In this document: piece after piece, positions 16,432 to 38,222 of the stretch | Layout: every line of letters starts with the position of its first letter | Position numbering within the stretch: the stretch's first letter is position 1 | Source of the DNA: Rhizobiales bacterium Ga0077545 | GTDB taxonomy: Bacteria > Pseudomonadota > Alphaproteobacteria > Rhizobiales > Methylopilaceae | Assembly (NCBI GenBank): GCA_001464335.1 | Contig: LNEV01000008.1 | Span: 186,001-250,000, forward strand | Length of the DNA stretch: 64,000 bases | Direction: 5' to 3' | Position numbers and translations under genes: made by a program | The notes under the pieces: generated by a model | Database searches by the model: none | Told to the model about the DNA's origin: nothing | What the model saw: only the letters and a program-made list of their open reading frames with translations

Positions 16432-17043
16432 TTGACAATATTCCTATTTTGTGCTTTCCTCCCGTCACTCTTTTCCACGGAGGGGGCGGTTCCGGACCGT
16501 CCAGATCGCGGGGAAGGGTGCGGTGGCCAAAGGGCCGGGGAGTAACGTTGCCCCGATCCGATGGAAGCTGAGGAGTGTGAAAGCCGGCGGAAAACCACCC
16601 GCCACGGGAGCGTCTGGCCCCATCGCGTGCCAGACCCCAAGGAAGGCCCCGAGGTCGGCCTTCGCGGCGGAAACAGTCCGAGGTCAAAAATCCACCGCGC
16701 GCGGGACGTCGAGAGATCGACTTCCCCGAGGTGAGTACGAATTGGTGTTGGCATTACAAACAAACAGCCAACGCCGCCGCGGGAGCGGTCAATCTCCCGG
16801 CGTCCCGCGCGCCCCTCCAAAGGGGCAACGGAACGAGTGCCCGCCGAGCCGACCGGCTCGCGCATTCCAATCTTCCCCCGGAAGACGCTTTCGCGCATCG
16901 GCACGCCAAGGAACGTGCGCCTCTCCCTCCCCTTGATGGGGAGGGTGGCCTCGCGCAGCGAGGTCGGGTGGGGCGCGCGGCGGCAACCCCACCCCGGACG
17001 GCTCCGCCGACTCGACCCTCCCCATAAAGGGGAGGGAGAGGGC
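16432..17043 (+). repeat. Mosaic repeat element, copy 1 (conserved ends, divergent core)
   Basis: Together with copy 2 (37559-38222) this defines a repeat of about 0.6 kb. Its parts in order are: TTGACAATATTCCTATT (16432-16448); a conserved block CACTCTTTTCCACGG to AGTAACGTT (16466-16549) with GGGCGGTTCCGGACCGTCC and GGCC/GGCC hairpins; a divergent core (about 16550-16693); a second conserved block ACCGCGCGCGGGACGTCG to TTGGTGTTGGCATTAC (16694-16757); a shared CCGCCGCGGGAGCGG segment; and a large palindrome (16922-17043). Both copies also keep a minus-strand open frame beginning MPTPI and ending near QNRNIV or GNRNIV. Whether the unit is a structured RNA, a mini-mobile element or both is open. 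Confidence 0.75.
16922..17043. repeat. Large palindrome of the mosaic element, copy 1
   Basis: CTCTCCCTCCCC and GGGGAGGGAGAG form the outer stem; inner stems are GTGGGG/CCCCAC and GGCCTCGC/GCGAGG. It is nearly identical to 38100-38222 except near the TCGGCTGCGCCGA tip. Confidence 0.85.
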
Positions 17044-33693: not shown

Positions 33694-34488
33694 ATGCAGG
33701 ACGCCGTGAAGACAGAGACCCGCAGGCCGCGTTCCGTCGAGGCGGCGGCACGCCCCGCGAACGATGAGGTCGCGGCGGGGCAGAGCGTGCGCGTCGCCGC
33801 CCTCGGAGACCTCCACATGAAGGAGGACGCGGCGGGTTATTACAAAAACCTCTTCCTCGAACTGAACGACGAGGCCGACATCCTGTGCCTTGCCGGAGAC
33901 CTCACCGATTTCGGCCGCACCAAGGAAGCCGAAAACCTCGCCGAAGACCTGCGGAACCTGAAAATCCCGGTCGTCGCCGTGCTCGGCAATCACGATCACG
34001 AATGCGGACAGCCGGAAGAAGTCTCGCGCATCCTGCGCCAGGCGGGCGTGTGCATGCTGGGCGAAAGCACGCACATACATCACGGCATCGGCTTTGCAGG
34101 CGTGAAAGGTTTCGGAGGCGGCTTCGGCCGCCGCATGCTCGGCGCCTTCGGAGAGGGGGCCGTAAAGGCCTTCGTGCAGGAAACGATCGACGAGTGCCAC
34201 AAGCTCGAAATCGCGCTGCGCAGCCTGCACACCGAAAAGAAGATCGTCGTCCTGCATTACGCCCCCGTCGAGGCGACGGTGGTGGGCGAGCCCGAACAAA
34301 TCTTCCCTTTTCTCGGCTGCTCCCGCCTCGCCGAAACGATTGACCGCTACGACATCACAGCCGTCGTCCACGGCCACGCCCACCGCGGAACTTTTCGTGG
34401 CGCCACCCCGAAGGGTGTGCCGGTCTTCAACGTGGCGGTCGGCATCGAGAAGGAGGGCGGAAAGCCCTATTCGGTGATGGAGGTGTGA
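33694..34488 (+). CDS. Calcineurin-like metallophosphoesterase
   Basis: This 264-residue protein has the full two-metal motif set: GDLH (D38-x-H40), GDLTDFG, GNHDHE, VLHYAP and VHGHAHRG. Such enzymes hydrolyse phosphomono- or diesters; the fold alone does not name the substrate. The ATG at 33694 is preceded by GAAAGGAG. Together with the upstream nucleotidyltransferase it may form a synthesis/breakdown pair. The coding end overlaps the end of the convergent AAA+ gene by 22 nt, marking the boundary between the high-GC core and the low-GC insert. Confidence 0.88.
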   Translation: MQDAVKTETRRPRSVEAAARPANDEVAAGQSVRVAALGDLHMKEDAAGYYKNLFLELNDEADILCLAGDLTDFGRTKEAENLAEDLRNLKIPVVAVLGNHDHECGQPEEVSRILRQAGVCMLGESTHIHHGIGFAGVKGFGGGFGRRMLGAFGEGAVKAFVQETIDECHKLEIALRSLHTEKKIVVLHYAPVEATVVGEPEQIFPFLGCSRLAETIDRYDITAVVHGHAHRGTFRGATPKGVPVFNVAVGIEKEGGKPYSVMEV

Positions 34489-36692
34489 GCCAATCCTTCT
34501 GACTTTGATAGAGTTTTTAGCGCCGTCAATGCTTGCTGAATCAACGGTTCTAGAGTTGTTGGATTGTCTAACTCTTTGGTGGCAATATCGTCCCCATTAA
34601 CTTCTATAGTATGTACACATGAGGCGGCCATATCAGGTGACTTGAGAGCGATATCAAGATGTTTTCTCGCTTCTTCATAGTTATTCTGTAGAGCTTTAAG
34701 TATACCAATATTGTAATGTAAGAGCCGTGGGCATTCATCATCGTATTTTAGTGCAGCTTGAAACCACAGGTCTGCCTCTGGAAGATCTCCAGCATCTAAA
34801 AATAGGTAGCCGACATCGTTGGCTTCGGGATGGAGTCTGCTTTCGACGAGTATAAACGCGGCTTCCGCCATTTCTTTCGCCTTTATTTTATCTTTCTCAT
34901 CGACGTAATAACCACGCATCATATCCATTAGGGTTGTTGCGAGTTGTGTCGAAAGCAGTTCATCCGCAATTTTTTGAATTCTGGACACGACGGTGGCCAC
35001 GCTAGGTACAGTTATATCCCAGTATTTTCGTTCAATGTTGAATTGGATGTCGACGCCCCGCGCGCACAGCTCTTCTAAGCGTTTATTTAGCTTGCGAATT
35101 CCAGCAATGTGCTCGGGCGCGGACCATACAAACCAGAATTGCCCCGAGCATAAATCAGAAGTGTAGTATATTTCATAAAGTCGGACGGTTCGACCTGTTT
35201 CGCTTTTGATGAGTGAATTGAGCAGGTCGATGAGTAGCCGTGTAACAACAATGTTGTTGTAATCAATGTCTTCACAATCGTTTACAATTTCAATAAATTG
35301 AGAGATATCGTCCGCATAATCAGCAGCTAGCTGTCCCGTCAAAGGTTTGATGCTATCAAAGTCCTGGTACATGCGAATAAAAGTTAAAAACACAGTTCTT
35401 TCTAGCGGAGCCTGACTGAAGCCAACGTTTGCTCGTTTTGATCTCGCAAAATATTTTAGGTAGATACGCTCGAATTCATCCCCTTTGAATGTTAATCCTT
35501 GTGGATTTTGTTCGATAATTTCCATCCTTATAAGATCGTCAATTGCTTCGTAAAAAGCAGTCTCCACCCATCGAGTGTTGCCATGGAACAAGTACTCCAA
35601 GCGCCACAAGTCCTTGCTATGGAGTGTCTCCTTGCTGCTCAGGACAGCATCTAAAGCGATAAATAATTTCCTTCTCAGCGACTGGGCCTTCTGAAGGATC
35701 GGGCGGTCGTCGACATTTTGGCCGGAGGCCAATTCCTTTTGGATGCTGTCTAGCGTGGTAAGATCTAGCGTAAAGCGTCGCGTCGCGTTGTCTTGGCTGC
35801 GTCTGAAAAGCGTGTGGCATATGAGTTGAATTTCATACGGGCGGCGGCCTGATAGCGCGTCCATCTCTTTGATGAACAACGACGGAGCTAGCATCCTCAC
35901 TGCCCGTTGTTCCAATCCTAGATTCGCAAGGGGCGTCCGTATGCAGTCGGCTACGTCGTCTTCGGACCTGAACGGGCCAATGTCAATACGTTTGAATTGG
36001 CGGATGATAGGCGAAAATATTTCATCCATTATGGGAAAAAAATCTGGAGTTGCCGCCAATGCTAGCATGTACCCCGACATGTTCATGAAAATGTTGCGGA
36101 GCTTTTCGAGAATGACTCGATTGGCCCGCAAGACATTACATTCGTCAATTAGTATCAAAATTGGCATACGGATTTCAGTTGAAATAGCGCTGAGATCTTC
36201 TGCTAAGATGTCATCAGGAGCATTGATATTTTTATTAGCTTTCAATGCCCTTCCCAAGAGTATGGCAAAAACTAAGGGCATCTGTTCTTTATCGGTGATT
36301 TCTCCCGTAGCAGTCAGTTCAAGATAAGAAAAATAGGTCGGACTTGCACGGCCGCCGAAGGCCCCATGGTTGAAGGCAGCCATAACCACAGAGTGAAATA
36401 ACTTTCGAAAGAAATCTAAGTCGTTTTGGACGTCCCCTTCGTTTAAGTTGATGCGTACAACACAAAAATCTCGCCGTTTAGCCTCTACCTCCGCCATGTT
36501 CAGGAAGCTCGTTTTTCCTGATGCGCGGGCACCTACAAATGCTAGGTGAATAGGCTTGTTGGTTCCTTTTGCATGATTTAAATAATAAATAACGTCGGCA
36601 ATCTCTGTTTTTCGACCGAAAAAAAGCCGTTCATCTGACACTGGGTTGGCAAAGTCGTAAGGGTTGTGGAGCGTTTTAATCTTCTCAAGCAT
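34467..36692 (-). CDS. STAND-like AAA+/P-loop ATPase with helical C-terminal repeats
   Basis: This 741-residue protein has an N-terminal FFGRKTEIADV (residues 24-34) of the type that precedes STAND and AAA_16 NTPases, Walker A GARASGKT (54-61), and Walker B ILILIDEC (D183, E184). A probable sensor region (MLALAATPDFF) and a winged-helix-like part follow. The middle and C-terminus are helical; the last 130 residues show TPR-like periodicity (YLFLDAGDLPEADLWFQAAL, LLHYNIGILKALQNNYEEAR). Base composition is far below the neighbours. The start overlaps the end of the HEPN gene by 8 nt. By analogy with known STAND defence NTPases it may sense a phage product and switch on the HEPN partner; this is inference. 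Confidence 0.82.
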   Translation of the reverse strand: MLEKIKTLHNPYDFANPVSDERLFFGRKTEIADVIYYLNHAKGTNKPIHLAFVGARASGKTSFLNMAEVEAKRRDFCVVRINLNEGDVQNDLDFFRKLFHSVVMAAFNHGAFGGRASPTYFSYLELTATGEITDKEQMPLVFAILLGRALKANKNINAPDDILAEDLSAISTEIRMPILILIDECNVLRANRVILEKLRNIFMNMSGYMLALAATPDFFPIMDEIFSPIIRQFKRIDIGPFRSEDDVADCIRTPLANLGLEQRAVRMLAPSLFIKEMDALSGRRPYEIQLICHTLFRRSQDNATRRFTLDLTTLDSIQKELASGQNVDDRPILQKAQSLRRKLFIALDAVLSSKETLHSKDLWRLEYLFHGNTRWVETAFYEAIDDLIRMEIIEQNPQGLTFKGDEFERIYLKYFARSKRANVGFSQAPLERTVFLTFIRMYQDFDSIKPLTGQLAADYADDISQFIEIVNDCEDIDYNNIVVTRLLIDLLNSLIKSETGRTVRLYEIYYTSDLCSGQFWFVWSAPEHIAGIRKLNKRLEELCARGVDIQFNIERKYWDITVPSVATVVSRIQKIADELLSTQLATTLMDMMRGYYVDEKDKIKAKEMAEAAFILVESRLHPEANDVGYLFLDAGDLPEADLWFQAALKYDDECPRLLHYNIGILKALQNNYEEARKHLDIALKSPDMAASCVHTIEVNGDDIATKELDNPTTLEPLIQQALTALKTLSKSEGLAHTSITE

Positions 36693-37503
36693 AAGTTTTG
36701 CTAGCCTTCTTTATCATGCTTTCGATTAATGCTGTGGATTGGGACGCGAGATCCGCTGCTTGATTGCGTTTTACCCATTCGCGTCTTGCAACTGCTTGGC
36801 CTATCCCAGAGGGCAAATCGGAGTATTGCTTACAAATGCCAGAAAAATGTCGAAGTTGGCTCGTGCCTTCACCAAGGTAATCGTCATCGAACCACCATTC
36901 GTCGAGCAATTTCAGAGAAGTAATGCGGTCGGCGGATAGAATATGTCCGCTCGGCATTACCTCCAACGCGTGCGAGAATGAATTTTGAATATCGGATAGA
37001 CATTCAGATATCGATAAGATCGAACAGATCGCATTTTTTGCTGCCTCAAGGCTCAACGAGTCGAGGCTGTCCAATACTTTAGTGTATGTACCTTTAAGGA
37101 CAGAAAGATCGCCATCGCTGACTAGGCGATTATGCGCGACCTTGTTCCTAACCGACTCGACATCACTCAGCGATATGTCGGTCCCTGACTTCGCGTGGAA
37201 AAACTCCGTGAATAAAGGCCAGTTCGTACCGTTCGTAACGATTTTTCTTAGGTCCGGAAAATCGGTATAGTAAAGGGGGTGATGTGGTGTCAGCCGAGAC
37301 CAGGGAATCGACCTTTCATGCCGGATGGTGGAAGAAACCTTGTCTCGGATATCCGGGGGTAAGCCGCGCTTTTGCCACGAGCCTTTATGCTCGGTCCGTA
37401 GGCGTGCCGCGATTAGCTCACGAAGTATGTTTTCAAGGTCAAAAAGAAGACCGTACGCCTCGATGTTATTTTTGCGAGTGCGTTCGTAGTTGCTATCGAT
37501 CAT
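36685..37503 (-). CDS. Swt1-type HEPN domain protein (putative RNase effector)
   Basis: This 272-residue protein has an N-terminal region matching the Swt1-family HEPN domain: FDLENILRELIAARL, then YYTDFPDLRKIV and NWPLFTEFF, then the R-x4-H catalytic motif R119-NKVA-H124 in ESVRNKVAHNR. That motif is the nuclease signature of HEPN RNases and is intact. The C-terminal half is helical with no recognised domain. I start at the ATG at 37503, which has GGGAGA five bases upstream; the ATG at 37551 adds 16 residues and has no ribosome site. It is translationally coupled to the downstream STAND-like ATPase. GC content is low. The mosaic repeat copy 2 begins 56 nt upstream. Confidence 0.85.
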   Translation of the reverse strand: MIDSNYERTRKNNIEAYGLLFDLENILRELIAARLRTEHKGSWQKRGLPPDIRDKVSSTIRHERSIPWSRLTPHHPLYYTDFPDLRKIVTNGTNWPLFTEFFHAKSGTDISLSDVESVRNKVAHNRLVSDGDLSVLKGTYTKVLDSLDSLSLEAAKNAICSILSISECLSDIQNSFSHALEVMPSGHILSADRITSLKLLDEWWFDDDYLGEGTSQLRHFSGICKQYSDLPSGIGQAVARREWVKRNQAADLASQSTALIESMIKKASKTYA

Positions 37504-37558
37504 TTTCTCTCCCAAAGGCAGTATTTCAAAAATCTCGGGATTCACAACCATCTAGATA

Positions 37559-38222
37559 TTGACAATATTCCTATTCCCTGCTAAACCCATCTCACTCTTT
37601 TCCACGGAGGGGGCGGTTCCGGACCGTCCAGGATTGCGGGGAAGGGGGCGGTGGCTGGTGGCCGGGGAGTAACGTTCCCTTTGGTCGCCGGAGGCTGAAG
37701 GTGCGTTGTTCCGGCCGGGTCGATGGCCGTGCAACACGTCGGCGGCAAGGGTGTAGGCTTCCGAGAGCGAAGCCCTTGTCGGATGAAGCCGCTGTAGGTG
37801 CCTTGAAAGAGGGTGCTTACGGAACGGCGCACCGGAGGCGCAGAACACCGCGCGCGGGACGTCGTGAGAGCGATGCCCCACGGTGACTAAAACAATTGGT
37901 GTTGGCATTACAAAACACAGCCAACGCCGCCGCGGGAGCGGTCAATCTCCCGGCGTCCCGCGCGCCCCTCCAAAGGGGACGAGGACACGCCAAACCGGGT
38001 GTTCCCGTGTTTGGCGAAAGGAAAGTCCGCCGAGCCGATGGCTCGCGCACGCAAACCTTCCCCGGAAGACGTTTTCGCGCATCCAGATTCCAGAGCGCCA
38101 TCTCCCTCCCCTTGATGGGGAGGGTGGCCTCGCGCAGCGAGGTCGGGTGGGGCGCGCGGCGGCAACCCCACCCCGGTCGGCTGCGCCGACTCGACCCTCC
38201 CCATGAAAGGGGAGGGAGAGGG
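37559..38222 (+). repeat. Mosaic repeat element, copy 2 (conserved ends, divergent core)
   Basis: This has the same modular order as copy 1: TTGACAATATTCCTATT (37559-37575), CACTCTTTTCCACGG to AGTAACGTT (to 37676), a divergent core of about 170 nt (37677-37846), the block ACCGCGCGCGGGACGTCG to TTGGTGTTGGCATTAC (to 37911), the CCGCCGCGGGAGCGG segment, an extra inverted repeat with CCAAACCGGGTGTTCCCG, and the large palindrome (38100-38222). The hairpin GGCC-AAAG-GGCC of copy 1 becomes GGCT-GGT-GGCC here, still pairable. A minus-strand open frame of 118 codons (37552-37908) parallels the one in copy 1. As in copy 1, a minus-strand gene starts just outside the TTGACA end. Confidence 0.75.
38100..38222. 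repeat. Large palindrome of the mosaic element, copy 2
   Basis: The outer CTCCCTCCCC/GGGGAGGGAG stem and inner stems match 16922-17043 almost base for base; the TCGGCTGCGCCGA tip differs in a compensating way. Confidence 0.85.

Follow-up and report, generated by a model that had tools for sequence, protein, structure and literature searches.

Putative structured noncoding RNA genes that share a promoter box with gene transfer agent genes in an alphaproteobacterial family

Gene transfer agents (GTAs) are domesticated phages that are found in many Alphaproteobacteria and pass DNA between bacteria. The available portions of the published accounts describe how their expression is governed in Caulobacter crescentus: GafY, which interacts with RpoD, has binding sites at the GTA and gafYZ promoters and at 18 additional places in the chromosome. 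IHF shares 18 of these 20 sites, and GafZ depends on an inverted repeat that lies between the -35 and -10 elements of the GTA promoter (PMC11150451). One of the upregulated scattered loci of this regulon encodes a homeodomain-related protein (PMC11150451, PMC9632790). The terms “non-coding” and “small RNA” have no occurrence in the accessible text of PMC9632790 and PMC13236601, nor does “sRNA” in that of PMC11150451. As far as the available descriptions extend, the GafY/GafZ/IHF regulon of Caulobacter and the GafA regulon of Rhodobacter capsulatus have the same general design as the one considered here, namely a GTA cluster and a set of scattered loci under one activator.

Three further kinds of elements offer points of comparison. 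The HEARO/omega, ROOL, GOLLD and OLE RNAs are large structured bacterial RNAs of several hundred nucleotides with many helices; the phi29 packaging RNA and the ColE1 RNA II are structured RNAs that serve DNA packaging or replication; and the rhizobial RIME and ABC elements are modular, dispersed, mosaic intergenic repeats. The RNA described below resembles the first group in size and number of helices, with a long-range helix that crosses helix P2, but differs from it in being multicopy, in having GTA-type promoters, in lacking any linked protein gene that we noticed and in matching no Rfam family. With the phi29 and ColE1 RNAs we draw a functional analogy only and claim no relation in sequence or structure. 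Like RIME and ABC it is modular, dispersed and intergenic; as these are described, a fixed promoter layout and covarying helices set it apart from them.

The stretch of DNA analyzed here (the window) is 64,000 nucleotides long and corresponds to positions 186,001-250,000 of contig C8 in a 3.38 Mb genome (G000). The original prediction placed in it, at 37559-38222, the second copy of a mosaic repeat with conserved ends and a divergent core. The mosaic is real: the first ~120 nt (query 1-121) are 84% identical to copy 1 and the 3′ part (query 288-664) 81%, the middle ~166 nt do not align, and TTGACA stands at the start of both copies. The reported span, nevertheless, combines two unrelated things, an RNA gene at ~37559-38080 and a dispersed palindromic repeat, without assigned strand, at ~38104-38222. 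We rejected the latter as a part of the RNA element, as it is placed differently at other loci; the same palindromic repeat also lies outside copy 1 (16921-17043). A search of the host genome recovered 46 matching pieces, far above chance, with copy 2 itself and pieces of the tail repeat counted in. We interpret copies 1 and 2 as probable members of a multicopy family of structured noncoding RNA genes with a predicted length of ~430-490 nt.

On the plus strand of the window, copy 2 opens with the -35 box TTGACA (37559-37564), which takes the same position in nearly all copies compared, followed inside the promoter spacer by the box TATTCCTAT (inverted, TAGGAATA; 37566-37574) and, after a spacer of 17 nt, by a putative -10 box, TAAACC (37582-37587), which is assigned from its spacing and preceded by an extended TGn. 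The predicted RNA (37594-38080) would run from the start suggested by this promoter to a terminator-like 3′ hairpin, CCTTCC-GGAAG followed by TTTTCGCGC (38056-38080). Within it, helix P2 pairs 37593-37603 with 37638-37648, as supported by covariation, and the long-range helix P1, recognized by comparing its strands between lineages, joins GGAGGGG (37606-37612) to CCCCTCC (37965-37971). The P3 hairpin region (37650-37696) is followed by the variable core (37697-37845), of a type common to the copy at G000:C9:355786, and by the 3′ domain (37846-37971), with a closing helix (37851-37861 with 37954-37964) and an inner hairpin (37898-37904 with 37922-37928). Copy 1, on the same strand, occupies 16432-16896 up to the end of its terminator-like hairpin, with its -35 element at 16432-16437, box at 16439-16447, 5′ domain at 16464-16569 and 3′ domain at 16693-16818. 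The same order, i.e., TTGAC, 17 nt spacer, -10-like box, 5′ domain, core, 3′ domain and terminator-like hairpin, recurs among the compared copies of G000 and of two related genomes, G002 and G003. By eye, the terminator-like hairpins of other copies are similar with different letters, and they often close with TTTCGCGC. The core, divergent between the two window copies, is not random: several types of it recur among the copies, and it has a predicted fold.

A covariance model of the 5′ domain built from 18 sequences (R1) found 19 copies in G000, 16 in G002 and three in G003, which are the RNA-bearing genomes of the window’s genus (g1), and none in the 15 other genomes of the family. A BLAST match in a second genus (g2; locus L026) then led to the same RNA in all 13 of its 13 genomes. 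For a wider search of 150 relatives we used a joint model of 45 sequences (R2; alignment A3 holds 45 of the 51 sequences gathered), whose matches lean on sequence because its automatic structure lost helix P2. It detected the RNA in 16 of the 18 genomes of the host’s bacterial family, the exceptions being G001 and G005, with 23 copies in G012, 17 in G000, 16 in G002, nine in G015, eight in G007, seven in G003, six in G010, five each in G004 and G014, four in G016, three in G011, two in G013 and one each in G006, G008, G009 and G017. Two matches came from G032, a member of a different bacterial family, and none from the other 131 genomes under the stricter filters applied to that many genomes, by which weak members may be missed. 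These model searches of the genome and its relatives define a multicopy family spanning two genera and G032. Weak matches in four genomes of other families resembled ordinary coding or unrelated DNA at the one locus compared in each (L102-L105), and a Streptomyces locus from a pattern scan (L056) was by eye a chance match. Assembly breaks inside RNA copies are common, as at the ends of contigs C4, C6, C7, C9, C10, C11, C13, C15, C17 and C18 of G000, so that the counts may fall short of the real number through collapsed or missed copies.

Compensatory changes in P2, in P1 and in the 3′ hairpin are evidence that the structure of this RNA is under selection. In 18 of 21 sequences (three damaged or truncated ones were left out), seven of the 11 pairs of P2 show double-sided changes and 94.9% of cells are paired; for the 17 pairs of P2 and P3 together, 96.1% are paired versus 39-57% with slid partners, and none of 500 shuffles equaled either the percentage paired or the covariation score. 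In the 3′ domain, compared in 16 of 19 copies after dropping three with an insertion, four of the seven pairs of the inner hairpin have double changes and all cells (100%) are paired; the outer helix says little because it hardly varies, and of five measures for this domain, two (how many pairs and how many pair types there are) are no higher than in the shuffles. P1 pairs GGAGGG near the 5′ end with CCCTCC at the 3′ end. Its strands are GGAGGG/CCCTCC in g1, mostly GGAAGG or GGGAGG with CCTTCC in g2, and GAGGGG/CCCCTC in one copy of G032, the other having CCTCTC. All six of its pairs form in 48 of 60 copies as against 29% of cross-lineage combinations, a comparison in which the search pattern, seeking pyrimidine-rich strands, itself favors pairing; in five g2 copies the pattern found no 3′ strand, while six g2 entries, either chance matches or damaged, had been removed beforehand. 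The 12 copies falling short of six pairs comprise seven with a single mismatch and five that, by eye, pair only in a shifted register. P1 crosses P2, and the two would therefore constitute a pseudoknot if both form together. Covariation supports helices other than the local GGCC-AAAG-GGCC hairpin in which the original prediction had seen pairing conserved despite change.

No Rfam family matches this RNA, and we did not find it catalogued elsewhere. At gathering thresholds, Rfam 15 returned one tRNA from the window and nothing else; at E≤1 there was no match for three RNA loci, and at E≤5 a further 15 loci gave an SRP RNA beside one copy and ten matches far below gathering scores. HEARO, the guide RNA of the IscB/TnpB type, matched none of these loci at the respective thresholds. 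The literature examined, including the accessible portions of PMC11150451, PMC6363796, PMC9632790 and PMC13236601, showed nothing recognizable as this RNA. A known RNA family was accordingly rejected. Protein coding on either strand was likewise dismissed, with frames being lost and P3 modules differing by non-multiples of three; the minus-strand frame starting MPTPI, which had been remarked upon in both window copies, fares no better, for only five of the 26 copies compared have the MPTP start, and the frame is otherwise lost. Nothing pointed to a phage, plasmid or viral origin: phage and plasmid collections gave no match, and one 5′ pattern scanned against viral contigs gave zero.

Next to copy 2 on the minus strand (34467-37551) is a two-gene cassette, oriented in the opposite direction, whose start is no more than ~60 nt from the promoter of the RNA. 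It codes for a 741 aa AAA/STAND-like protein with TPRs (weak Pfam matches) and a 288 aa HEPN-like protein similar to the PADLOC candidate PDC-M34B (E 6e-21), and is possibly a defense candidate. Its abutment on the RNA gene, which had been part of the original description, looks coincidental, other copies of the RNA having different neighbors.

The promoters of the RNA genes provide a connection to the GTA genes. A box, TAGGAAWA, placed beside or inside the -35 region, is common to RNA genes, GTA terS-terL, genes for terS-like helix-turn-helix (HTH) proteins and, in g1, gafA. By eye, ATTCCTA or GGATTATGRTCCTA is present in all 33 RNA promoter sequences compared, and the four matches of the box pattern in G000 all lie at RNA genes. 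A strict form of the box has 13 matches in the 18 genomes as against two for the control, resolving upon inspection into 11 RNA genes and two HTH protein genes. With up to two mismatches, TAGGAAAATANNCNTTGACA has 43 matches in 16 of the 18 genomes and its reversed control none; these sites fall at 17 RNA genes (the places G004:C2:212890 and G000:C14:224787 having been added by hand from the strict-box inspection and R1), 12 GTA terS genes, five terS-like HTH genes and one gafA, with three more lying within 6 kb of a GTA terS and five elsewhere. RNA genes thus form the largest group of box sites (17 of 43), whereas no noncoding RNA figures in the available parts of the Caulobacter and Rhodobacter descriptions.

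Our reading of GTA promoters covered 16 loci, of which 13, in 12 genomes, have such a promoter, one of these belonging to a non-GTA HTH gene. In them, TAGGAAAATA-NN-C-N (TAGGAAAAAGTTC in G000) immediately precedes TTGACA, and directly after the -35 box comes, with small variations, the inverted repeat AGCGTGACGCT (12 genomes), the same kind of element as that associated with GafZ in the accessible account of Caulobacter. The loci of G008, G012 and G016 have no GTA-type promoter at that spot, and a looser search finds boxes elsewhere in these three genomes. Box and spacing are identical in the GTA promoters and many g2 RNA promoters, where a near-palindrome, AGGAA-N4-TTCCT, commonly overlaps the -35 box; in g1 RNA promoters they are displaced or altered, with a similar motif, often inverted, sitting inside the spacer. 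The gafA promoters of the three RNA-bearing g1 genomes carry the box, in two of them with the distance to the -35 box shorter by one, whereas gafA in the 13 g2 genomes showed no box with the motifs tried, nor was one seen at L309 in G032. The inverted repeat AGCGTGACGCT is absent from the RNA promoters compared. That GTA promoters have it while these RNA promoters do not fits the RNA genes being scattered targets of the GafY type.

Some further observations concern the GTA promoters and their surroundings. Most GTA clusters of the family have a nearly identical motif, TTGACAGCGTGACGCTG-N-TCGGGTAG, in the terS promoter (12 genomes), a candidate for a GafZ-type site. Immediately upstream of a gene for a 256 aa protein with a PRVPRGNADGG motif (G003:C11:79182; L268) lie the regulon box and a second TAGGAAAATA; this gene is possibly a further member of the GTA regulon. 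In G008 a GTA-type promoter (C1:1900612; L251) lies ~46 kb from terS at 1854998, a distance that might reflect a rearrangement splitting the GTA cluster. In G012, the genome with the most RNA copies, two GTA-type boxes (C1:1823547 and 1829559) flank terS-terL.

Within the family, the RNA and the GTA occur in the same genomes. The large terminase TerL of the GTA, which in G000 matches Terminase_6N/6C, is encoded by the same 16 of the 18 family genomes as the RNA, and the remaining two lack both; these counts refer to the 18 family genomes, with G032 lying outside them. The terS-type HTH family, too, occurs in 16 of the 18 genomes, all but G001 and G005; another of its branches is the small terminase encoded immediately upstream of a GTA-type large terminase. 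DUF6456, the GafA domain, also occurs in the same 16 genomes and, among 14 control genomes, only in Caulobacter. We take DUF6456 to be a domain of the GafZ/GafA type, which here fits both its co-occurrence with the GTA and Caulobacter being the sole control match; the gene encoding it, gafA, is likely that of the GTA activator. The co-occurrence of RNA and GTA is suggestive rather than an independent proof, the family having only two RNA-free genomes.

The genomic positions of the copies were compared for 92 RNA copies in 87 of 95 loci, the patterns having located no RNA in the other eight. Among between-genome pairs of copies that share a neighboring gene, side and orientation both agree in 46, and ten show other arrangements; the 46 are not independent, many coming from a few sites. 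The largest shared site is near genes for rpsU, an FKBP and a DUF3617-like protein (all named by eye from sequence) in eight mapped g2 genomes, or up to ten by shared genes, with one locus (L116) partly in another arrangement. Two good pairs cross the genera, their shared neighbors being 80% identical over 548 aa (L119-L166) and 67% over 309 aa (L158-L186). The pair L170-L187 was rejected as orthologous, the RNA being inverted relative to the shared gene. In the three G002-G000 pairs with a common neighboring gene, this inverted one included, identity between the RNAs is 57-67%, compared with 86-99% in G002 and 87-96% in G000 for the best paralogue within the same genome (gap columns not counted throughout). 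Shared positions together with such similarity within genomes suggest that the positions are old and the sequences homogenized within each genome. Some copies are nearly identical although their flanks are unrelated, with sharp edges on the left, implying that some movement or conversion has happened. Separately, an RNA copy in each of two species (L081 in G002:C1 and L003 in G000:C13) has the same neighboring gene, dnaX-like by eye, and an SRP RNA adjoins L081.

Taken together, we consider it probable that the element is a structured noncoding RNA gene belonging to the GTA regulon, its RNA being produced once GTAs are induced. The main skeptical alternative as to its role is that of a selfish, hitch-hiking RNA, which would disperse itself by means of GTA-type promoters and of DNA carried by GTAs, would spread and be homogenized through the transport of copies from cell to cell in GTAs, and would not serve GTA production. 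The near-identical copies with unrelated flanks, the range in copy number from one to 23, the excess of similarity between paralogues of one genome over that between species at a common neighboring gene and, within the family, the restriction of the RNA to GTA genomes would all be expected of such an element. We nevertheless regard it as unlikely: the neighborhoods shared even across genera, together with the site near the rpsU/FKBP-type genes common to eight to ten g2 genomes, point to genes that are old and have been inherited vertically, and neither a target duplication nor a transposase was noticed by eye beside the copies. A pure mobile element is, in particular, not preferred because gene neighborhoods are shared, bearing in mind that the tally of 46 versus ten refers to copy pairs and not to independent sites. 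More improbable by far is an ordinary dispersed intergenic repeat of the REP/MITE type without function, for all that the element is multicopy, intergenic, mixed with palindromic repeats and prone to break assemblies, as this would leave the fixed promoter layout, the compensatory changes in P2, P1 and the 3′ hairpin, the box common to GTA genes and the shared neighborhoods unaccounted for.

A different kind of objection accepts a regulatory small RNA but ascribes the box to some regulator distinct from the GTA activator. A terS-like HTH protein, for instance, might repress or activate a small regulon of its own and also target the GTA promoter. Several HTH genes do have the box upstream, and the HTH family occupies the same 16 of 18 genomes; yet these proteins are paralogous to the small terminase of the GTA, and in three genomes gafA, too, is preceded by the box, both of which favor the GTA circuit, leaving this reading possible but doubtful. 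The earlier proposal of a retron-like, guide-type or rapidly evolving RNA locus has survived in its last part, in that we see a fast-evolving structured RNA with exchangeable modules and covariation, while nothing was found in support of the retron or guide-type part. That the element is a retron, a guide RNA or a small coding gene is accordingly the least credible of the readings considered: conserved ends around a variable core and the open minus-strand frame in both window copies had suggested it, but there is no Rfam match, the MPTP start is confined to the few copies mentioned above, and no gene for a reverse transcriptase or nuclease was noticed by eye beside the copies.

Under the favored reading, of an RNA gene in the GTA regulon, the promoter box would be the site of the GTA activator (of the GafA/GafY type) or of a co-regulator, GTA-producing cells would switch on their RNA copies together, and the folded RNA would act in trans in the producing cell. 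Our leading guess for its role is that it assists GTA assembly or the packaging of DNA as an RNA cofactor, alongside the terminase or the HTH paralogues, where copy number and homogenization would serve dosage. Against dosage stands the single copy found in four genomes, and against the GTA reading as such the fact that most g1 RNA promoters have the box inside the spacer, unlike the GTA promoter, along with the lack of AGCGTGACGCT in the RNA promoters compared and of any box recognized with the motifs tried at gafA in the 13 g2 genomes or seen at L309 in G032. Going beyond membership in the regulon, we tentatively raise the idea of an unknown RNA component of GTAs, dispersed, GTA-activated and pseudoknotted, which might function in making, filling or releasing particles or in priming replication at scattered sites. 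The boldest alternative is this priming variant, in which extra DNA replication, by way of an R-loop or in an RNA II-like manner, would supply DNA for packaging.

If true, these proposals would add an RNA to a GTA system that the available accounts otherwise describe through proteins, and would bear on how GTAs choose and supply the DNA that they package and on the role of the scattered accessory loci, in addition to presenting a large RNA family that is new and whose concerted evolution is unusual.
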